Source of the DNA: Ectobacillus panaciterrae DSM 19096
Lineage (GTDB): Bacteria > Bacillota > Bacilli > Bacillales > Bacillaceae_G
NCBI RefSeq assembly: GCF_000430785.1
Contig: NZ_AUMR01000053.1
Span: forward strand, 1-38,628
DNA length: 38,628 bases
Direction: 5' to 3'
The translations under genes were made by a program, and so were the position numbers. This document shows, piece after piece, positions 27,449-36,063 of the stretch (its first letter is position 1; each line of letters begins with the position of its first letter). The notes beneath the pieces are model-generated. The model made no database searches and was not told the DNA's origin. It saw only the letters and a program-made list of their open reading frames with translations.

Positions 27449-27615
27449 GGGTGCTTTTTTATGTAACTAAAAATGGGGTATCCACAGTCAAGCAATATAC
27501 GAATATTACCTTCCTCTTCATTAAACCATTCCACTATTCCTTCTCGTTTCAAAACCAATCCCATTTTCATTTTTTCGCCCGTTAGTTAAAAAAACTGTAT
27601 ACCGTATTCGTGTCA

Positions 27616-27643
27616 AGTTAACATAATCAGTGTTATCGGAAGT
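27616..27643 (+). other. dif-like Xer site 1 (6-bp centre)
   Basis: Left arm AGTTAACATAA, centre TCAGTG, right arm TTATCGGAAGT. Read on the minus strand it is ACTTCCGATAA then TTATGTTAACT, which matches the B. subtilis dif half-sites ACTTCCTAGAA (8 of 11) and TTATGTAAACT (10 of 11). It lies 27 bp past the stop of the SpoIIM-like gene. A flank related to TGTATAcgaTATACA lies on the left. Confidence 0.8.
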
Positions 27644-27670
27644 TAATGATTCCCTCTTGAGGTACAAAAA

Positions 27671-28312
27671 TTAATTTAGCAAGAAACGAGTGATGTAGCC
27701 TTCGATAAATGCCGCTATGAAGATAAATGGAGTAATCACAAACATAAAGACGATACAAGTTTTTTTTAAATGTTCCCATAATGATAGAACATTTTTTTTA
27801 TCATGACGAAACGTATTCATGATTTTCCCTCTAATAATTTGATTAATCTTACCTCCATAACACGATGTAATTATAAATACAGAGAGTTCTAAGATACTAT
27901 GAGGAAGTAAACCTAAAACAATGGTAGAGAACAGACTCATTCCTACCTTTTGGGATAAATATATCACGACACCAGTTATAGCACTTGTTAAAGTAAGCGA
28001 AAGTGTATACAGAAATGGTACTGGTACAAGAGATAATATTAATATTTGAAAGCAAACAGTCCAATTGTTTTTAAATAAAAGAATTGTTCCTTGCCAATAG
28101 CTTTCTTTATTACTGGTTGTGTCAGAACTAAATTTATCCAACCCTTGAACAAACTTTTTAGCATCCAAATGTAGTAATGATGCGATTAAATAAGTAATAA
28201 TAATAATAATTAAAGTGGCTAACCAATACCTCCAAAATGTTTTTTTGGAATGTTGCCATGTGTTTCTCAAAAGATGTACTTCTTTCTCAAGAAGAGAATT
28301 TACTTTGTTCAA
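27671..28312 (-). CDS. Stage II sporulation protein M family membrane protein
   Basis: 213 residues, about five helices. Family landmarks: FKNNWTVCFQILILSLVPVP, SAITGVVIYLSQKVGMSLF and LLPHSILELSVFIIT, where SpoIIM proteins carry LLPHGxxELPA. B. subtilis SpoIIM is a membrane part of the engulfment peptidoglycan machinery (with SpoIID and SpoIIP). Many Bacillus genomes carry extra, shorter SpoIIM-like proteins of unknown role, and this accessory copy is more likely one of these. It sits between dif-like sites 1 and 2. Confidence 0.7.
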   Translation of the reverse strand: MNKVNSLLEKEVHLLRNTWQHSKKTFWRYWLATLIIIIITYLIASLLHLDAKKFVQGLDKFSSDTTSNKESYWQGTILLFKNNWTVCFQILILSLVPVPFLYTLSLTLTSAITGVVIYLSQKVGMSLFSTIVLGLLPHSILELSVFIITSCYGGKINQIIRGKIMNTFRHDKKNVLSLWEHLKKTCIVFMFVITPFIFIAAFIEGYITRFLLN

Positions 28313-28388
28313 AATCTAATCCCCCTAATTCTAATCATCTTTAACGGTATAATAAATTCTCTCTCCTTTGCTTATTGTGAAAACAGCA

Positions 28389-28412
28389 AACCCCTCCACT
28401 TTCAGAGAGGTT
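28389..28412 (-). terminator. Weak hairpin after the small membrane protein gene
   Basis: AACCCCTC and GAGAGGTT pair at 7 of 8 with loop CACTTTCA; the minus strand continues with a T-rich stretch TGCTGTTTTC. Confidence 0.4.
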
Positions 28413-28423
28413 CGTTCCATTTC

Positions 28424-28585
28424 CTATGCTTTTTCAGGCTTTCTCAGATACTTGGTGAAGTATGCTCCTAACAACAGAAACACAACTGTCATTCCGTAAG
28501 CAAAAATGCCCCAACCTGTGTAATGACCAATGATTTGCACTAAAGCAATGAGTAAGAAACAAATAGAGGTCAAATAACGTTTCAT
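28424..28585 (-). CDS. Small two-helix membrane protein
   Basis: 53 residues: MKRYLTSICFLLIALVQIIG, then HYTGWGIFAYGMTVVFLLLG and a basic tail KYLRKPEKA. Two hydrophobic helices joined by a short loop. The start at ATG 28585 is set by GGGAGGAGGT eight bases upstream, a strong signal that makes this a real gene. No family recognised. It lies in the same dif-bounded module as the SpoIIM-like gene, about 110 bp upstream of it. Confidence 0.65.
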   Translation of the reverse strand: MKRYLTSICFLLIALVQIIGHYTGWGIFAYGMTVVFLLLGAYFTKYLRKPEKA

Positions 28586-28670
28586 GGTAGCACCTCCTCC
28601 CTTCACCAAATTTTACCATCTTGATAATACGTTGGTAAGGAAATTTTTCCTGTATATCCTATTCATGTGA

Positions 28671-28699
28671 AGTTTACATAACATATCATTATCGGCAGT
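28671..28699 (+). other. dif-like Xer site 2 (7-bp centre)
   Basis: Arms AGTTTACATAA and TTATCGGCAGT, centre CATATCA. The left arm is the exact complement of the B. subtilis dif half-site TTATGTAAACT. The left flank reads TGTATATCCTATTCATGTGA, related to the flanks of sites 1, 3 and 5. Confidence 0.78.
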
Positions 28700-28768
28700 G
28701 AATCAATTAATATATGAATACTAAGGTTTATTTATTTTTATATTAAAAATGTTATCATATATATAATC

Positions 28769-29935
28769 TTATACCTGCAAATTTTTTCTCGATGTTTTTT
28801 CCCTTATTAGTAAGTTAGCTAGATGCTTACGTGCTGTTTCCATCGGTCCCATGGTAAAGTAACCTAACCATAAAGTAGCAAAGAGTAGCTGCAGCAAACA
28901 GATTAATATCCAAACAGAAATGACCGTAAACGAGCTGGGATTTCCACCAAACCCCAAGCCCCAACCATAAAACAGAACTGAACACAAAATATTCTGTAAT
29001 ACATAGCAGCTCAAGGACATCTTACCTGCTCTTTCTAGGAAGCTCCACAATGAAAAGGAATGGAATTTTTCAACCAACAAGCTGATTGCTCCCATGTATC
29101 CAATCGACAGAATCGGAGCAAATACATACCTTACTGGAAAATCAAAATAACCTCCGGGAATAAACAGCAATAAGTTTAGAGGTAAACCAAGAGACAGTCC
29201 GATCTTCATCATCTTTTTGCGAATGTTCCGTCCATTATCATCATTCGCAAAAGCTCCTTTCCTCATCAACAGAACACCTGTTAAAAATAGAAAAATATTA
29301 AAGGGAATAACAAAGATTGCTTCTGTCCGCAAATCCCAAAAATGGCTAAGTCGATATTGAACCTGTTCCAACCAAGATCCGATTTGATAAAGGTTAGTGA
29401 CTTCTTGAGGTGTTGCAAATGACTCACTATTTACTTGATGTCCCAGTACACCTAAGCAAACAATTAATATAAAGAAGACATGAATCACGCCAACACTGAT
29501 CATCGTTATTCGCATCGTTTTTTCTCCTGCTTTGACGATAAGAGAGACAATAATCGCGGTCATTGCATAAGACATCAAAATGTCGTACTCCAGCACCAAG
29601 GTAAAGTGCAGAAATCCTTCGAGAAGTAGAATTAAGGAAATCCATATGTATATTCCTGGCCAAGGACGATTCAACCGTTGCGATTGCTGGTATTTTAATT
29701 CCAATCCAACGCCAAACATGATGGCTAATAAGCCAAGCAATTTGCCATTAATTAAAGCTAAAAATAAAGTTCGTAAAAAGGCGTCACCCGATAACCACCA
29801 CTTGTTATGAGTAAAGGTAAATATATAATTCAAGTCCCCTAAATGTGCAAAAATCCAAATATTTGTTCCTAAGGTTCCTAAAATTGCTAATCCCCGTAAA
29901 ATATCTAGACTTCGAATTCGTTTGCTGCTTTTCAT
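28769..29935 (-). CDS. DUF418-family membrane protein (YrkO/YxaH-like)
   Basis: 388 residues with about ten helices. The start RIRSLDILRGLAILGTLGTN is the DUF418 opening (RxxxLDxLRGxAxxGxLxxN), and the C-terminal half contains FLERAGKMSLSCYVLQNILC and the GPME motif near the end (YFTMGPMETARKHL), which define the family. The biochemical role is unknown. ATG 29935. Between dif-like sites 2 and 3, alone in its module; the stop is 70 bp from site 2. Confidence 0.85.
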   Translation of the reverse strand: MKSSKRIRSLDILRGLAILGTLGTNIWIFAHLGDLNYIFTFTHNKWWLSGDAFLRTLFLALINGKLLGLLAIMFGVGLELKYQQSQRLNRPWPGIYIWISLILLLEGFLHFTLVLEYDILMSYAMTAIIVSLIVKAGEKTMRITMISVGVIHVFFILIVCLGVLGHQVNSESFATPQEVTNLYQIGSWLEQVQYRLSHFWDLRTEAIFVIPFNIFLFLTGVLLMRKGAFANDDNGRNIRKKMMKIGLSLGLPLNLLLFIPGGYFDFPVRYVFAPILSIGYMGAISLLVEKFHSFSLWSFLERAGKMSLSCYVLQNILCSVLFYGWGLGFGGNPSSFTVISVWILICLLQLLFATLWLGYFTMGPMETARKHLANLLIREKTSRKNLQV

Positions 29936-30065
29936 GTTTCACTCTCCGCTTTCTTAATTTTTTCATTATTAATCACACGCTTACTTTATTTGAAAAATAT
30001 ACCGGATATACCATTATTATACAATAAGTAATTGAAGATTTTATTTGTATATCGTATACATGTTC

Positions 30066-30094
30066 AGTTAACATAACATGTCATTATCGGTAGT
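30066..30094 (+). other. dif-like Xer site 3 (7-bp centre)
   Basis: Arms AGTTAACATAA and TTATCGGTAGT, centre CATGTCA. The left flank has the dyad TGTATA-TCG-TATACA, shared with site 5; the right flank CAATGCATCTA is also shared with site 5. Confidence 0.8.
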
Positions 30095-30112
30095 CAATGC
30101 ATCTATAAACCT

Positions 30113-30156
30113 ATAATAAATCCCTTCAGCAAAATAATAATGAAGGGATTTATTAT
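30113..30156. terminator. Hairpin next to dif-like site 3
   Basis: Perfect 16-bp arms (30113-30128 and 30141-30156, core AAATCCCTTCA/TGAAGGGATTT) with a 12-base loop. AT-rich ends on both strands suit a bidirectional terminator. Confidence 0.65.
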
Positions 30157-30240
30157 TTATATGACTCAAATCATTAGTTATCAAAGGAATTGTTTTTTAC
30201 TTCTTCCACTACTGATACTCCTTCACTATTATCATCCATT

Positions 30241-30381
30241 GGGTTCTGGTGCAAAAAGTTTAAACAACGTCAAATAAGCACATAAGCATACAAAATATAG
30301 AAATAAATACTCCAGAATATACACGATTCTTTACAGCTTAAACAAGCTTTTAATCTATTTTCAATTTGTGCACCAGAACCC
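30241..30381. mobile_element. 141-bp MITE-like element with IS6-family-type ends
   Basis: Left end GGGTTCTGGTGCAAAAAG and right end TTTGTGCACCAGAACCC are inverted copies of an IS6-like terminus. The 100-bp interior has no gene. A third end of the same type, TTTTTGCACCAGAACC, follows at 30446-30461, so two overlapping or decayed insertions are possible. Confidence 0.55.
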
Positions 30382-30465
30382 AAGCTTCTTCTATAAAAGA
30401 CGCATTAAATGATCGTATAAGAGATGACTTGCAACTATCTTGAAGTTTTTGCACCAGAACCACAT

Positions 30466-30630
30466 CCGGGATCAACGACTGTCTGCCCGCGGCAACATAT
30501 TGCGATCGATTCGTCCCTCCACGATCGAGCGAAGTTTCGCAGAAAGTAAAGAACTTCACGCTCTTCGTTTCGTCCGATACCGTGGAGTTCGCTACATACA
30601 GATTCAAGTTTGGTCCACTTTTCAACAACG
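30466..30630 (+). pseudogene. IS1182/IS4-type transposase C-terminal fragment
   Basis: Plus-strand frame DQRLSARGNILRSIRPSTIE, RSFAESKELHALRFVRYRGV, RYIQIQVWSTFQQ. The segment STIERSFAESKELHALRFxRYRG resembles the final DDE-domain part (the YREK-like ...TIERxFADAKExHGxRxxxxRG) of IS1182-family transposases. All else is lost. It lies between an IS6-like end and the adhE gene. Confidence 0.6.
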
Positions 30631-30665
30631 TGAATGAGGCTTGTTTGTAAACAAGCCTCATTCAC
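30630..30665. repeat. 36-bp palindrome after adhE
   Basis: 17-bp perfect arms (30630-30646 and 30649-30665, beginning GTGAATGAGGCTTG) with centre GT. It is 34 bp from the adhE stop and at the edge of the IS remnant. No T-run on the minus strand. It may terminate adhE or be an old IS feature. Confidence 0.6.
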
Positions 30666-30698
30666 AAAGTTTAATAGTACGTATACAGAATTCTTACT

Positions 30699-33302
30699 TT
30701 ATACTCCTTTAAATGCTTCGCGGTAGATTTCTGCCAATTCTGTTACTAATGGTAATTTTGGATTGGCAGTTGTACATTGGTCTTCAAATGCACGCTCTGC
30801 TAAATAGTTTACTTTGCTTTCAAACACTTCTTTATCAACACCTTGCGCTTCGATACTCATCGGAATGTTCAGTTCTTTGCCAAGCTTGATGACTGCTTGA
30901 ATTAAGCTTTCCACCCCTTCTTCAGTCGTGCGTGCCGGCAAACCTAACATTCTTGCGATTTGGGCGTAACGCTCATCTGCTACAAAGTGCTCATATTTCG
31001 GGAACAAGGCATGCTTGTTAGGTTTTTTCGCATTGTAGCGTATTACGTGCGGCATTAGGATGGCGTTAGCGCGCCCATGAGCGATATGGAACTCTGCTCC
31101 AAGCTTATGCGCCAAGCTGTGGTTGATGCCAAGGAATGCGTTCGCAAACGCCATACCTGCAATCGCAGAAGCGTTGTGCATTTTTTCACGAGCTTCTTCG
31201 TCGCTGCCATCCTTATAAGCACGCGGTAAATACTTGAATACAAGCTCAATGGCCTTTAAGGCTAATCCGTCGGTATAATCGTTTGCCAAGATAGATACAT
31301 ATGATTCAACCGCATGTGTTAACACGTCCATTCCTGTATCCGCTGTGATGTGCGGAGGAACAGTCATTACAAATTGTGGGTCTACGATTGCTACGTCCGG
31401 TGTTAATTCATAATCAGCCAATGGATATTTAATATTGTTTTCTTTGTCAGTAATAACAGAGAATGGAGTCACCTCGGAACCTGTACCAGATGTTGTCGGA
31501 ATCGCCACAAATTGTGCTTTTTGGCCTAATTCAGGATATTTGAATGTACGCTTGCGAATATCGATGAACTTTTGTTTTAAGCCATGGAAGCTGGTTTCCG
31601 GATGCTCATAGAATAGCCACATTCCTTTTGCTGCGTCCATTGCAGAACCACCGCCAAGCGCGATGATTACATCAGGCTGGAATGCTCTCATCATTTCTGC
31701 GCCTTTAAATACTGTTGCGTCAGATGGATCCGGTTCAACATCAGAGAACATCTCTATTTTTACATTGTTCGGATTCAGATTTAAATAGTGCAATACCGTC
31801 TCTACATAACCTAATTTCACCATGCCAGGATCAGTTACGATAAAAGCACGCGAAATTTTCGGCATTTTTTCCAAATATTGTGTTGCGTGTTTTTCAAAGT
31901 AGATTTTCGGAGGGAGCTTGAACCATTGCATATTATTGTTCCTTCTCGCAAGTTTTTTCACGTTCATCAAATGGATAGCTGTTACGTTTGTAGATACAGA
32001 ATTTTTACCGTAAGAGCCGCATCCTAATGTTAAAGATGGCATAAACGCGTTGTACACGTCACCGATACCGCCTTGAGCAGAAGGAGCATTTACAATAAGA
32101 CGGCATGCTTTCATGCGTAAACCGAATTGACGTTGTACTTCTTCGTCAGTAGAGTGCATCACTGCAGAGTGGCCTAGTCCGCCAAGCTCAAGCATTTCTT
32201 CGCAGCGCTTGAATCCTTCTTCTGCACTGTTTACTTTGATGCAAGCTAATACGGGACTTAGCTTTTCTCTGGAAAGAGGATGGTTTGGACCTGCTCCTTC
32301 AATTTCTGCTACAATCATTTTTGTGCCTTCTGGAACAGTAAATCCTGCAAGATTTGCGATATACTCAGGAGACTTACCGACAATTTCGGGATTTACGGCA
32401 CAAGTATTTTCGTTAATTACAAGCTTCTCCAATTGTTTCTTTTCTTTTTCTGTTACGAAGTAACATTTGTTTGCAATCATTTCTTCTTTTACTGCTTCAT
32501 AAATTTCTTTGTCAATAATAATGGCTTGTTCAGACGCACAAATCATACCGTTATCGAATGTTTTTGATAAAATTAAATCGTTTATGGCACGCTTGATTTT
32601 TGCTGTCTTCTCAATATAACAAGGAACGTTTCCAGGTCCTACGCCTAACGCAGGCTTACCTGTGCTGTATGCGGATTTTACCATACCCGCTCCGCCTGTC
32701 GCCAATACAAGAGCAACCCCCGGGTGATTCATCAATTGTTTTGTTGCTTCTACGGAAGGCTTTGTAATCCATTGAATACAGTTTTCCGGGGCACCTGCTT
32801 TTATTGCTGCTTCATGAAGAACACGTGCAGCTTCAGCAGAGCAATTTTGTGCTGAGGGGTGGAACGCGAAAATGATAGGGTTTCTTGTTTTAATGGCAAT
32901 CAACGCTTTAAACATTGTTGTAGAAGTCGGGTTCGTCACCGGAGTCACACCTGTGATAACTCCTACCGGCTCTGCAATTTCAATGATGCCCGCATGAGGA
33001 TCTTCGTTAATTACTCCCACTGTTTTATCGTTTTTGATGCTGTGCCAAATATATTCAGTAGCAAAAATGTTTTTGATGATTTTATCTTCGTAGACGCCGC
33101 GTTCGGTTTCCTCTACTGCCATTTTTGCAAGCCGCATATGTTGATCCAATCCTGCCAATGCCATTTCATGCACAATATGGTCGATTTGCTCTTGGTTTAA
33201 CGTTTCGAATGTTTTCAATGCCTTTTGCGCTTTTTCTACAAGCTCATTAATCATTATTGTAGTTTCTTGTACTTGATCTAACACTTTTTCTTCAACAACC
33301 AT
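30699..33302 (-). CDS. adhE: Bifunctional acetaldehyde-CoA/alcohol dehydrogenase AdhE
   Basis: 867 residues: an N-terminal aldehyde dehydrogenase domain (about 1-430; catalytic Cys in FDNGMICASEQAII) and a C-terminal iron alcohol dehydrogenase domain (about 450-867; ALGGGSAMDAAKGMW, TTSGTGSEVTPFSV, LTHAVESYVS, GINHSLAHKLGAEFHIAHGR with the metal-binding histidines). It turns acetyl-CoA into ethanol and re-oxidises two NADH in anaerobic growth; such proteins form spirosomes. The start is ATG 33302, fixed by AAGGAGGATTT; the frame extends upstream without support. Preceded by a Rex-type operator at 33409-33426. It is bounded by dif-like site 3 and the inverted site 9. Confidence 0.95.
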   Translation of the reverse strand: MVVEEKVLDQVQETTIMINELVEKAQKALKTFETLNQEQIDHIVHEMALAGLDQHMRLAKMAVEETERGVYEDKIIKNIFATEYIWHSIKNDKTVGVINEDPHAGIIEIAEPVGVITGVTPVTNPTSTTMFKALIAIKTRNPIIFAFHPSAQNCSAEAARVLHEAAIKAGAPENCIQWITKPSVEATKQLMNHPGVALVLATGGAGMVKSAYSTGKPALGVGPGNVPCYIEKTAKIKRAINDLILSKTFDNGMICASEQAIIIDKEIYEAVKEEMIANKCYFVTEKEKKQLEKLVINENTCAVNPEIVGKSPEYIANLAGFTVPEGTKMIVAEIEGAGPNHPLSREKLSPVLACIKVNSAEEGFKRCEEMLELGGLGHSAVMHSTDEEVQRQFGLRMKACRLIVNAPSAQGGIGDVYNAFMPSLTLGCGSYGKNSVSTNVTAIHLMNVKKLARRNNNMQWFKLPPKIYFEKHATQYLEKMPKISRAFIVTDPGMVKLGYVETVLHYLNLNPNNVKIEMFSDVEPDPSDATVFKGAEMMRAFQPDVIIALGGGSAMDAAKGMWLFYEHPETSFHGLKQKFIDIRKRTFKYPELGQKAQFVAIPTTSGTGSEVTPFSVITDKENNIKYPLADYELTPDVAIVDPQFVMTVPPHITADTGMDVLTHAVESYVSILANDYTDGLALKAIELVFKYLPRAYKDGSDEEAREKMHNASAIAGMAFANAFLGINHSLAHKLGAEFHIAHGRANAILMPHVIRYNAKKPNKHALFPKYEHFVADERYAQIARMLGLPARTTEEGVESLIQAVIKLGKELNIPMSIEAQGVDKEVFESKVNYLAERAFEDQCTTANPKLPLVTELAEIYREAFKGV

Positions 33303-33390
33303 AAATAAATCCTCCTTTTTGATTGGTCGATTATTGACCATGATGGACTTTTTGTGTCCCTATTCTCTAAAAAGAGAAACGAGACCTGAT

Positions 33391-33436
33391 GTAAACGTTC
33401 ATGTATAATTGTGAATTATTTCACATGAATGTTTAC
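33391..33436. promoter_or_regulatory. Rex-type operator inside a longer palindrome
   Basis: TTGTGAATTATTTCACAT at 33409-33426 fits the Rex consensus TTGTGAA-N4-TTCACAA at all but the last base. It is nested in outer arms GTAAACGTTCATGT (33391-33404) and ACATGAATGTTTAC (33423-33436), 13 of 14 paired. Rex leaves DNA when NADH is high, which would switch on adhE under oxygen limitation. A weaker relative, TTGTGAAACGTTACAA, is at 33526-33541. Confidence 0.8.
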
Positions 33437-33541
33437 AAAGTTTCGTTATGCTTGTTAATGTATCTTCTGACTTTTTCAACCACACTCTTACTATATACTT
33501 TTTTTCGACTTTTTGTGTGTCTTATTTGTGAAACGTTACAA

Positions 33542-33818
33542 CTATTTACAGTAGAGGTTTAAAGTTCTTTGTCCCCAAGTACCTTACAACATCATTCTCC
33601 CTTGTGTTTCAAGTAAACTATACCATAATCTTTTTGATTCTGGTACGCAATTTTGAAACGCATTTTCAAGAGAATATGGGAGGCAAAATGAACGTTTCAT
33701 GATCAACAGTTTTTGAAACATCCCAAACCAATAAAAACGACCCCATTTATAGAATTGGTCATTTTCTCTTATTAGGAAAAACACTTTAAAGAGGAACAAA
33801 ACAAATAAGAGTAGTTTG
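33542..33818. other. Gene-free stretch upstream of adhE
   Basis: A minus-strand frame of 71 codons (33584-33799) has low-complexity aromatic content, no ribosome binding site and no recognisable family, so I see no gene here. The AT-rich leader of adhE is the only plausible content. Confidence 0.5.
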
Positions 33819-33846
33819 ACTTCCGATAACTCATGCTATGTTAAAT
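33819..33846 (-). other. dif-like Xer site 9 (inverted, 6-bp centre)
   Basis: Left arm ACTTCCGATAA, centre CTCATG, right arm CTATGTTAAAT: the same site as the others but on the opposite strand. The XerC-like arm is identical to that of sites 1, 4, 7 and 8; the XerD-like arm matches TTATGTTAACT at 9 of 11. With site 3 it brackets adhE in inverted orientation. Confidence 0.72.
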
Positions 33847-33965
33847 ATTTGTTCATTTAGAGTCATGACTATTTTGGAATTGTGTTCGTAAATATCAAAA
33901 ATAATTACAAACGAACAGAAAAATATTTGTTTATCACTGTTCGTCTAGACTACATCCTAAACAAA

Positions 33966-33994
33966 CAAAAAAGGCCTGTTTAAATTCAACAGGC
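33966..33994 (-). terminator. Rho-independent terminator beside dif-like site 4
   Basis: GCCTGTT (33974-33980) and AACAGGC (33988-33994), loop TAAATTC; the minus strand continues CTTTTTTG. It stops minus-strand transcription from the germination permease module just after site 4. Confidence 0.75.
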
Positions 33995-33995
33995 T

Positions 33996-34023
33996 GCTTA
34001 ACATAATCAGTGTTATCGGAAGT
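33996..34023 (+). other. dif-like Xer site 4 (6-bp centre)
   Basis: Arms GCTTAACATAA and TTATCGGAAGT, centre TCAGTG, the same centre as sites 1 and 6. The right flank CGATGTATTTA resembles CAATGTATCTA of site 5. Confidence 0.8.
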
Positions 34024-34133
34024 CGATGTATTTAGAAATCTATGAAGTCTTTTCAATTTCGTTGCTGCTTTAACACCCAGTAAAAGATAGAAGCAAAAGA
34101 ACCAACAGCAAAACCAAAAGAAATCGTACATTG

Positions 34134-35237
34134 TTATGACTTTACTTTATGCTTCCTCTTTTTCAATCTCAAGATGAGCAAAAGTAACGGCGGTTGTAAA
34201 CCAAATAAAAACAACACAGCATTGCCCAGCATATCCCCGAATTTAAATAACTCATTGATGTTTGTTGGAATCATGGCAGCGATGTAAATGATCGGAAATA
34301 AGCCATACATAAATGGATGAATGTTCTTTTTAAAGAATTGGGCCAGCCCCAAAGAAGCAGCATAGTAGCCGGTGGTAAAGGAAGTAAACATTTGCATAAT
34401 CCATATCACGAGCAAAAAAGACTCAAACCGTTCAAATATCAAACCAGACATTTCAAAACTTCGTATGAGATCGATCGTCGGCCATGTTAGCGTTATCACT
34501 CCATCGATGGATAACCCACCGATAACCATCACGACAGTTATCGTGTAAAAGATCAGTGGGATGAAAATTCCAACCAGAACAGCTTTTCCTGCTTTGTTTG
34601 GCTGTTTCATAAACGCCGTTATAATCAACATGATTTCAAAACCTGTATATGAGAGAGTGGTTGTTTTTATTCCTTTTAGTACTGGTATGATCCCCAACCC
34701 CAGTACCGGGCGCAGATTATCCATCTCAAATATTTTGAAGCTCATAAAGGCAACCAGCAAAAAAATACCGACCGTAATGGGGAGGATAATTTCAAACAGA
34801 CGAGCAATCGGATTTATGCCGCCCATGATCAGATAGAGACCCGTCAACATATATGGCATAAGGATGGCCCATAGGGGGGTGCCTTCTAGCAAGAAATAAC
34901 TTGTTATTTCTGCTAATGAACGGGCATGAAACCCACACATCATAAAAAAATAACATACAAGGAGTAGACTTAGTAACCCGCCCACCCATTTCCCTACAAT
35001 TTTTTGGCTGTATTGATAAAAAGTTTTTCCTGGAAACTGTTGGCTTAATTTGACTATGATAACCCCTGCCATCATCGCAATTAGCCCGCCTAAAATCACA
35101 GTTAACCAGATATCTGGTGTTTTCACCTTCTCTGTAGATGTTCGGGGCAAGGTCAGAATCCCCATTCCAAGTATGTAATTGGTGACGATAACAGCTGCTT
35201 GAGACGTCGTAATACGGTCTTTGGGGCTGGTAATCAT
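34134..35237 (-). CDS. GerAB-type endospore germination permease
   Basis: 367 residues, about ten helices, APC superfamily. Landmarks of GerAB/GerKB proteins: ITTSQAAVIVTNYILGMGIL, TLPRTSTEKVKTPDIWLTVI, FPGKTFYQYSQKIVGKWVGG, MGGINPIARLFEIILPITVG, TTTLSYTGFEIMLIITAFM. In spores the B subunit binds the nutrient and works with A and C subunits. Here it stands alone: no gerA-A or gerA-C partner is next to it, so it may be an orphan that joins receptors encoded elsewhere. AAGGAAGTGA precedes ATG 35237. It fills the module between dif-like sites 4 and 5. Just after its stop a short frame (SFGFAVGSFASIFYWVLKQQ) suggests a one-helix peptide that lost its start by a one-base slip. Confidence 0.85.
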   Translation of the reverse strand: MITSPKDRITTSQAAVIVTNYILGMGILTLPRTSTEKVKTPDIWLTVILGGLIAMMAGVIIVKLSQQFPGKTFYQYSQKIVGKWVGGLLSLLLVCYFFMMCGFHARSLAEITSYFLLEGTPLWAILMPYMLTGLYLIMGGINPIARLFEIILPITVGIFLLVAFMSFKIFEMDNLRPVLGLGIIPVLKGIKTTTLSYTGFEIMLIITAFMKQPNKAGKAVLVGIFIPLIFYTITVVMVIGGLSIDGVITLTWPTIDLIRSFEMSGLIFERFESFLLVIWIMQMFTSFTTGYYAASLGLAQFFKKNIHPFMYGLFPIIYIAAMIPTNINELFKFGDMLGNAVLFLFGLQPPLLLLILRLKKRKHKVKS

Positions 35238-35381
35238 CGCAGGTCACTTCCTTATTCACAATTCAGGATTACTACTTTCAGAGGGTTCATTATTTCTCAT
35301 TTTTCCACGCTTTTTCTTATAAACAGTACAATTTTATATTTCCAAAAAAGAACAAAAATTATGCATATCGTATACATGTGA
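35238..35381 (-). other. Leader of the germination permease gene
   Basis: AT-rich upstream region; no clear vegetative promoter seen. A forespore-specific promoter would be expected, but I could not identify one with confidence. Confidence 0.35.
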
Positions 35382-35410
35382 GGTTTACATAACATGTCAT
35401 TATCAGTAGT
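35382..35410 (+). other. dif-like Xer site 5 (7-bp centre)
   Basis: Arms GGTTTACATAA and TTATCAGTAGT, centre CATGTCA, identical to the centre of site 3. The left flank ATATCGTATACATGTGA and right flank CAATGTATCTA also match site 3, so the two sites are homologous over about 60 bp. Confidence 0.78.
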
Positions 35411-35430
35411 CAATGTATCTACCACTTTAT

Positions 35431-35465
35431 AAAAAAGAGCTCGTCAGATCCTGTTCTGACGAGCT
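35431..35465 (-). terminator. Terminator between dif-like sites 5 and 6
   Basis: AGCTCGTCAGA (35438-35448) and TCTGACGAGCT (35455-35465), perfect 11-bp arms, loop TCCTGT; on the minus strand CTTTTTT follows. It is the only content of this 60-bp module. Confidence 0.8.
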
Positions 35466-35469
35466 TTCT

Positions 35470-35497
35470 TGTTCACATAATCAGTGTTATCGGTAGT
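35470..35497 (+). other. dif-like Xer site 6 (6-bp centre)
   Basis: Arms TGTTCACATAA and TTATCGGTAGT, centre TCAGTG. Only 59 bp separate it from site 5. Confidence 0.75.
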
Positions 35498-35507
35498 TCA
35501 GCTGTTC

Positions 35508-35539
35508 AAAAAGGCTTCAAAGGTACATGAAGCCTTTTT
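35508..35539. terminator. Bidirectional terminator between dif-like sites 6 and 7
   Basis: Perfect 12-bp arms AAAAAGGCTTCA and TGAAGCCTTTTT with loop AAGGTACA. A second hairpin, GTAGAATTT/AAATTCTAC, follows at 35567-35588. No gene lies in this module. Confidence 0.8.
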
Positions 35540-35623
35540 GCGTTTGTTTTGGATCGTGACAGCAAGTAGAATTTCAATAAATTCTACATTCATAAGATGT
35601 TCAAAATTGCTTATTTTATGTAT

Positions 35624-35651
35624 TGTTTACATAACATAATTTATCGGAAGT
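35624..35651 (+). other. dif-like Xer site 7 (6-bp centre)
   Basis: Arms TGTTTACATAA and TTATCGGAAGT, centre CATAAT. The last base of the site is the last base of the stop codon of the lipoprotein gene, so gene and site are directly fused. Confidence 0.78.
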
Positions 35652-35959
35652 TATTTTGGTGCAGAATCAATAGCACCGAAATCATTATGGAGTGTAAAAT
35701 CTACTTTTTGTCCAAAAATTTCAATAAGTTTCTGTTCAATCTTTTTTCTAGTATCAGGTTTGATTTCTCTAACATAAAAATGGATGTTTCCTTTTTTATC
35801 GTATGTAATTGCATCAATTCCGCATTCAAACATGAATTTATCAGCTTCATCAGGGATTCCATAATTTTTGATATCAAGTTCTTTGATTTTTTTCATTGAA
35901 ATTTGTTCACAGCTTGTAAAAATAATAGAAGTAAGCAAGAGTATAAGTATTTTTTTCAT
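35651..35959 (-). CDS. Small lipoprotein of unknown function
   Basis: 102 residues with a lipoprotein signal: MKKILILLLTSIIFTSC, lipobox ending at Cys17, then EQISMKKIKELD. The mature part is a charged 85-residue domain (GIDAITYDKKGNIHFYVREI, DTRKKIEQKLIEIFGQKVDF). No family recognised. It would be anchored on the outer face of the membrane. The ribosome binding site is weak (GGATGTGA). It is the sole gene between dif-like sites 7 and 8, the smallest complete cassette. Confidence 0.7.
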   Translation of the reverse strand: MKKILILLLTSIIFTSCEQISMKKIKELDIKNYGIPDEADKFMFECGIDAITYDKKGNIHFYVREIKPDTRKKIEQKLIEIFGQKVDFTLHNDFGAIDSAPK

Positions 35960-36035
35960 CTAATCACATCCAAATTGTATATTGTTTTTAGGATGTGTTT
36001 TACTTATTACTTTATTCTAATTAATTAACGTTCCA

Positions 36036-36063
36036 AGTTAACATAAGTCGTGTTATCGGAAGT
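36036..36063 (+). other. dif-like Xer site 8 (6-bp centre)
   Basis: Arms AGTTAACATAA and TTATCGGAAGT, the same arms as site 1, centre GTCGTG. The last site seen on the right; beyond it comes the aldo/keto reductase. Confidence 0.8.

Follow-up and report, generated by a model that had tools for sequence, protein, structure and literature searches.

Dif-like sites border recurring gene modules in Ectobacillus panaciterrae and on Priestia plasmids, pointing to probable XerC/XerD cassette arrays

Introduction

Cells normally keep a single dif site, which is used for chromosome separation, and the XerC/XerD pair that acts in this process is present in most bacteria. A stretch of 38,628 nt from Ectobacillus panaciterrae DSM 19096 (hereafter the window; contig 39 of a 5.41-Mb genome in 189 contigs) holds nine dif-like sites. 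A first-pass annotation of the window had proposed a Xer-driven cassette system in a Firmicute, similar to the pdif modules of Acinetobacter plasmids. The main comparative tests fit the cassette proposal, as the sites are intergenic and oriented and modules recur from site to site, and we conclude from sequence comparison that these are probably cassette arrays moved by XerC/XerD at dif-like sites.

Results

Dif-like sites in the window and in the genome

Scanning the whole window at spacings of 5-8 bp against the arms ACTTCCGATAA and TTATGTTAACT yielded nine sites with at most 4 mismatches in 22 positions (range 0-4), and their positions, 11-bp arms, 6- or 7-bp centres and the inverted copy at 33819 are all as the first-pass annotation had given them. 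Shifted readings of the nine aside, the next-best window position has 6 mismatches, and ten single-base shuffles (one strand) gave no match at 4 mismatches or fewer, one at 5 and 12 at 6. The centre comprises 7 bp in three sites (28671, 30066, 35382) and 6 bp in six; only 33819 is on the plus strand, the other eight being on the minus strand.

The nine sites are a small part of a larger genome-wide set. The whole-genome search that had been suggested, with an 11-6/7-11 pattern, returned 120 matches with a 6-bp centre (N6) and 63 with a 7-bp centre (N7) at up to 3 mismatches, and none for the reversed pattern of either kind. In 60 pieces chosen for site content (0.92 Mb), scanned together with the window, a scoring matrix trained on these same pieces found 229 sites at a score of at least 15, 155 with 6-bp and 74 with 7-bp centres, distributed over 57 contigs; seven additional pieces of large contigs hold more sites and were left out of this number. 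Five column-shuffled matrices found no site in the same 0.92 Mb, and spacings of 4, 5, 8 and 9 bp resulted in 1, 1, 0 and 2 matches at a score of at least 14. The centres are most often CACTGA or TGANATG. A chance origin was rejected as the shuffles give none at 4 mismatches or fewer and the column-shuffled matrices none at all, and a single dif array near the terminus was rejected because the sites are spread over 57 contigs.

Within the genus the N6 counts of four genomes are 120, 1, 16 and 1, and Ectobacillus funiculus W18-2 holds 16 N6 and 43 N7 sites. At least one match to the dif-type pattern was present in 209 of 299 genomes sampled from the order and at least three in 17 by our own count, the highest numbers being 129 (genome G000), followed by 23 (G294) and 18 (G181). 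A pattern scan of genome contigs gave at least 114 loci, most with a single site and distributed over many phyla as well as Bacilli; among the 114 loci listed, eight have two or more sites by profile, five of them from E. funiculus.

The search for the true chromosomal dif, also suggested earlier, led to a separate candidate with the same arms on contig 19 (C19:46244), which reads ACTTCCGATAA-TATATA-TTATGTAAACT and is counted among the genome-wide matches. It is probably the chromosomal dif: the same 28 letters occur in five other genomes (G215, G239, G032, G251, G179), and the site is located close to a weak turn of the GC skew. The genes beside it have none in common with the dif-region neighbours in G003 and G017. 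Its centre, TATATA, is found in 1 of the 229 sites. The genome encodes both XerC (303 aa; TIGR02224, 359.4 bits, cut-off 335.15) and XerD (296 aa; TIGR02225, 407.7 bits, cut-off 329.6), and holds 20 Phage_integrase matches in all.

Sites are intergenic, co-oriented and joined in a recurrent junction

Open reading frames (ORFs) of at least 100 aa contain 5 of the 229 sites, compared with 7873 of 12200 random positions. Neighbouring sites are co-oriented in 156 of 168 pairs, 111 of the 168 intervals measure 0.2-3 kb, and between co-oriented sites 135 ORFs of at least 100 aa run along the site direction and 49 opposite to it. A compound junction recurs, in which a 6-centre site (often CACTGA) is followed by ~58 bp with a terminator-like hairpin, a 7-centre site (often TGANATG) and the palindrome TGWATANNNTATWCA, also written in the form TGTATANNNTATACA. 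Accordingly ordered pairs, 6 then 7, make up 23 of the 33 co-oriented pairs that are at most 75 bp apart. The 110 longer co-oriented intervals divide into 49 of type 6-6, 45 of type 7-6, 8 of type 7-7 and 8 of type 6-7, and both borders have the same centre in 3 of them (shuffled-centre mean 8.0; 2.75% of shuffles gave 3 or fewer). Often TAGATACATTG stands before the 7-centre sites and TCACATGWATANNRTATACAT after them. A second repeated leader, like TTGATATCATGGGGATGGTGG, replaces the terminator before 6 of the 45 7-centre sites compared (e.g. L144 4429).

The palindrome was scored as TGWATANNNTATWCA at no more than 2 mismatches and no more than 30 bp 3' of the right arm. With a motif that had first been read from these very sites, so that the test is not blind, it accompanies 61 of 74 7-centre sites of the genome itself, 45 of 51 in E. 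funiculus and 7 of 9 in G017, a genome of another genus, as well as 8 of 16 in a further genus from the same family and 18 of 39 Priestia sites; it is thus conserved from Ectobacillus to Priestia. Among the genome's own 6-centre sites it is present at 8 of 21 with an ATG-ending centre, 3 of 78 with a TGA- or TAA-ending centre and 6 of 56 others, and elsewhere at 2 of 30 (E. funiculus) and 1 of 8 (G017). Per group, no more than one upstream stretch held it, and among shuffled downstream stretches no more than 3% did. In the window the palindrome accompanies sites 28671, 30066 and 35382, with a weaker copy at 27616.

Modules recur from site to site in new contexts

The gerB module of the window (34024-35381) matches the genome's own contig C121 over its entire length (88%) and E. 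funiculus contig C127 over all but two bases (92%), and in these three contexts the left flanks are all unrelated, as are the right flanks. A gerB copy in another genus (G004:C23) keeps the right arm and the palindrome region and has no left arm, i.e. a half site. Two modules are common from site to site with G017: C110 2092-2588 (80%) and C41 15491-18147.

For a systematic comparison we used 336 sites with full flanks from the genome itself, E. funiculus, G017 and other genomes of the family. A flank of at least 120 bp is in common in 61 pairs on the left and in 25 on the right, the other side being shared too in 1 of the 86; at 40 bp or more the numbers are 436 left, 284 right and 2 both. 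In two pairs (C62:328 and C71:328; C115:7391 and C138:4196) the left flanks agree at 99.6% as far as the site, beyond which the sequences are unrelated. Sites scattered through the genome, which the first-pass annotation had named as a possible refutation of a cassette system, are hence observed, yet together with shuffling of modules between them.

Arrays on Priestia plasmids

Contig C1 of G181 is plasmid pBMV_3 of Priestia megaterium ATCC 14581 (100% over its length), and therefore the second outlier group was taken as Priestia. A matrix trained on this group and on pBM700 (P. megaterium QM B1551) itself found 45 sites at a score of at least 12.5, 37 of which have the same orientation, and 42 at 13.5, covering 150 kb of the plasmid's 164 kb. 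Over 400 kb, column-shuffled matrices gave ~1 match per score unit between 12 and 14 and no more than 0.2 from 15 upwards. By PLSDB typing, the Priestia plasmids considered here belong to rep_cluster_385.

pBM700 was compared with parts of plasmids from strains H2, KF18, LAD and AYG1023. A BCCT-transporter module (pBM700 75444-79581) is present in H2 and in P. aryabhattai LAD with 98-99.7% identity. At its right end pBM700 and LAD have the left arm GGTTCCTGTAA and the flank in common, and centre, right arm and the flank beyond differ; at the left end the pattern is reversed. The H2 module has the left border in common and its sequence changes just after the right site. Unusual arm letters of the module travel with their own side. 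When 174 Priestia sites with full flanks were compared, 28 pairs had only the left flank in common, 29 only the right flank and 9 both.

The FtsK/SpoIIIE-domain protein gene on pBM700 (L285 7111-8244) also occurs on two other Priestia plasmids. Annotated spore-related genes (SASP, spoVA and germination receptor genes) are found on the Priestia array plasmids examined for them (L286, L288, L289).

Cargo of the modules

The modules contain 177 ORFs of at least 60 aa and 151 of at least 70 aa; after 17 mostly short ones had been dropped by hand, the remaining 134 were scanned and gave matches to 140 Pfam families in total. GNAT acetyltransferases lead with 7, ahead of spore germination permeases with 5 and TerC with 3, and no recombinase or phage family is among the 25 commonest of the 140. 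PADLOC gave single-member matches, e.g. Thoeris ThsA and ThsB.

Discussion

The set of sites, their orientation, the anatomy of the junctions, the recurrence of modules with breaks at the sites, the xerC and xerD genes and the dif-type site are all observed, and together they point to cassette arrays. Genes, often with their own terminator, that lie between dif-like sites of mostly one direction would represent cassettes and the compound junctions their seams. Host XerC and XerD (CodV/RipX type) would bind the two 11-bp arms and exchange strands within the centre of 6 or 7 bp; circular cassettes could be excised between direct sites whose centres are compatible, and the circles could then integrate into a chromosome or plasmid wherever a compatible site is available. 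The left (XerC-type) arm would be kept with the upstream cassette end and the right (XerD-type) arm with the downstream cassette start. At the start of many genes in Ectobacillus there is a 7-bp-centre site and then the palindrome, which may have an accessory role, and at the end of many there is a 6-bp-centre site and then a terminator. A gene with unlike border centres would leave only along with a neighbouring module; since the two borders so rarely have the same centre (3 of 110), we propose that the gene is not cut out alone and that gene plus terminator is the moving unit. Centres may insulate in this way more generally, and we suggest that the probable dif is shielded from the arrays since its centre occurs once among the 229.

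Extending this to the family, we incline on balance to the view that the arrays constitute an integrase-free counterpart of the integron in Bacillaceae: genome- and plasmid-wide cassette arrays with their own terminators, putatively built by the housekeeping XerC/XerD at dif-like sites, with two classes of centre length and a dedicated accessory or operator palindrome adjoining the XerD arm, common to Ectobacillus and Priestia and swapping sporulation, germination, transport and defence genes singly.

The same borders might instead be used by a different, dedicated tyrosine recombinase of chromosomal, phage or plasmid origin with arms that resemble dif. Candidates exist among the 20 Phage_integrase matches, one of which, a Xer-like protein of 280 aa encoded on C95, scores 218.6 bits with the XerA model (cut-off 220), and the extra palindrome fits such an enzyme as we know of no dif that includes one. 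The arms of the arrays, however, agree with those of dif-type sites both in this genome and elsewhere in the order, and as the same arms are found in Priestia and Ectobacillus a shared housekeeping enzyme is the simpler assumption, making a dedicated recombinase unlikely. We consider it quite improbable that the sites are the dif-like core of an interspersed repeat, either a non-autonomous element or a regulatory or terminator repeat, with modules being shuffled by RecA or illegitimate recombination. The unit of six-site, terminator and seven-site is indeed conserved as such (23 of 33 close pairs), and so is the palindrome, but in those examples that were compared base by base the break lies within the 28-bp site or directly at it, the arms are conserved while the centre varies, and centres measure 6 or 7 bp with next to no matches at gaps of 4, 5, 8 or 9. 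It is very improbable that there is no cassette system at all and that the sites are attL and attR remnants left behind by numerous independent Xer-integrating elements (IMEX or phage), for although isolated single sites exist and one C62 site lies beside two integrase-family genes, 111 of 168 intervals measure 0.2-3 kb, neighbouring sites are co-oriented, exact modules are reused in new contexts, and the 25 commonest of the 140 Pfam families of the modules include no recombinase or phage family.

Several observations weigh against cassette arrays moved by XerC/XerD, or against parts of this model. As 49 of the 110 longer intervals are of type 6-6 and only 45 of type 7-6, the two-class design is not general. 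Copies of gerB on the genome's own contigs C64 (88%) and C1 (81%) are kilobases away from any site found. The pairs of the flank test, 1 of 86 with both sides shared, overlap in membership and hence are not independent. A crude test of all alignment ends is weak, with 45 of 778 ends at sites in both partners and 26 more in one, compared with 332 of 8780 random interior positions. For the Priestia plasmids, 10 of 48 alignment ends coincide with sites in both partners, compared with 16 of 1250 random interior positions, and therefore most breaks lie elsewhere; the PadR module of pBM700 has only its left border in common with KF18 and AYG1023. The idea that each arm takes along the adjoining half of the centre was promising on pairs; tested by family it is not significant (p = 0.29 for 7 families and 0.36 for 11) and amounts to no more than a hint. 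Searches for an empty site around two chromosomal places gave no clear one, and with an assembly in 189 contigs array order and near-identical copies are unreadable.

Sedentary chromosomal integrons typically consist of small promiscuous cassettes in long direct arrays, with a recombination site at the end of every cassette. The arrays described here share this layout; unlike integrons they have dif-like sites instead of attC and no integron integrase over the cut-off. A whole-genome search for IntI (TIGR02249) gave 19 matches, the best with 96.3 bits against a cut-off of 265, attC and attI not having been searched for, and an integron was rejected as far as the integrase goes. With chromosomal dif/XerCD resolution the arrays have the arms, the 6-bp spacing and the host XerC and XerD genes in common; dif, in contrast, has an AT centre and occurs once, close to the terminus, whereas the window has nine sites and the genome 183 (up to 3 mismatches). 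IMEX elements such as CTXphi and GGI use host XerCD to enter at a dif-like site, the same use of host XerCD as we propose here. They are single large elements at dif, and here small gene modules lie between many sites.

Dif modules of Acinetobacter are reported to have sites of alternating orientation (C/D, D/C) with 6-bp spacers on Rep_3/OrfX plasmids, and modules there therefore move in pairs (PMC13141974); chromosomal dif modules are reported as well in that genus (PMC12907356). Measured against these reports, the likeness to Acinetobacter claimed in the first-pass annotation holds in that modules are bounded by 11-bp XerC/XerD arms and reused across contexts, with breaks at the sites and variable spacers. 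It does not extend to the arrangement: here 156 of 168 neighbours are co-oriented, for which reason inverted modules of the Acinetobacter type were rejected, and 74 of 229 centres measure 7 bp (29-bp sites, a third of all). Further differences from the Acinetobacter modules as described there are the terminators between paired sites, the palindrome that in most cases follows a 7-centre site, and the number of sites, 229 in a part of a single genome. We found no description of such arrays for Bacillaceae in the open-access literature; subscription literature was outside the search, so that a prior report is possible.

If our reading is true, a spore-forming lineage to which the laboratory species P. 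megaterium belongs runs integron-like gene exchange with an enzyme pair present in most bacteria. Such exchange could account for the movement of orphan germinant-receptor genes (gerB) and other small traits, one at a time, between plasmids and the chromosome. It also raises the question of how a chromosome tolerates ~200 dif-like sites beside the true dif, which the role of the centre makes testable.

Features of the window and additional observations

The coordinates of the window features are collected in Table 1. The earlier statement that each site marks a module border stands insofar as the sites are placed between likely genes, site 35624-35651 overlapping the stop codon of the 102-aa ORF by one base; it does not stand for adhE, located between 33819 and 30066, which is probably no cassette. 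No site at a score of at least 17 was present in the adhE loci (5.5 kb) of six relatives, and because the loci there are free of sites a cassette was rejected and adhE is probably a resident gene between two short arrays.

Table 1. Coordinates of dif-like sites, junction elements and genes in the window
Feature	Coordinates	Strand	Remarks
Weak copy of TGWATANNNTATWCA palindrome	27596..27610	-	3' of site 27616
Dif-like site	27616..27643	-	6-bp centre CACTGA; 3' border of SpoIIM-like module
Module gene, SpoIIM-family membrane protein	27671..28312	-	Pfam SpoIIM, E 2.7e-19
Palindrome	28651..28665	-	Adjoins right (XerD-type) arm of site 28671
Dif-like site	28671..28699	-	7-bp centre TGATATG
Module gene, DUF418 protein	28769..29935	-	Pfam, E 2.3e-34
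Palindrome	30046..30060	-	Adjoins right arm of site 30066
Dif-like site	30066..30094	-	7-bp centre TGACATG
Terminator-like hairpin	30115..30154	-	A short way 5' of site 30066; fold -22.3 kcal/mol for 30095-30165
adhE	30699..33341	-	Probably resident gene; one short array on either side
Dif-like site	33819..33846	+	6-bp centre CTCATG; inverted relative to the other eight
Terminator-like hairpin	33974..33994	-	Directly 3' of site 33996; fold
Dif-like site	33996..34023	-	6-bp centre CACTGA; ~205-bp inverted pair with 33819
gerB module	34024..35381	-	ORF 34134-35237, endospore germination permease
Palindrome	35362..35376	-	Adjoins right arm of site 35382
Dif-like site	35382..35410	-	7-bp centre TGACATG
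Terminator module, 6-centre to 7-centre site	35411..35469	-	Hairpin 35438-35465
Dif-like site	35470..35497	-	6-bp centre CACTGA
Dif-like site	35624..35651	-	6-bp centre ATTATG
Module gene, 102 aa	35651..35959	-	N-terminus resembles a lipoprotein signal by our reading
Dif-like site	36036..36063	-	6-bp centre CACGAC; outer array border

The 102-aa module ORF has no Pfam or NCBIfam match at E 0.001. The 205-bp segment between the inverted sites (33819-34023) is found again at C113:4742-4967 (92%), and inverted mini-modules thus exist beside direct ones. A match between a Peribacillus plasmid and the window flank is an intergenic stretch distant from the sites.

At 30242-30461 a stretch of 20 bases, GGTTCTGGTGCAAAAAGTTT, is repeated 200 bp away in inverted orientation with 2 mismatches, and the pair resembles the ends of an IS6-family element; a motif similar to GGTTCTGGTGCAAAAAGTTT follows the left site of the pBM700 BCCT module. 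Near the contig end (37563-38361) the ORFs by our reading resemble a group II intron reverse transcriptase/maturase in pieces. Beside site C62:1527, two integrase-family genes and a small third gene stand in a row (C62 2169-5911), an arrangement that resembles a Tn554-type transposon and is flanked by ORFs that to us appear monooxygenase-like and glyoxalase-like.

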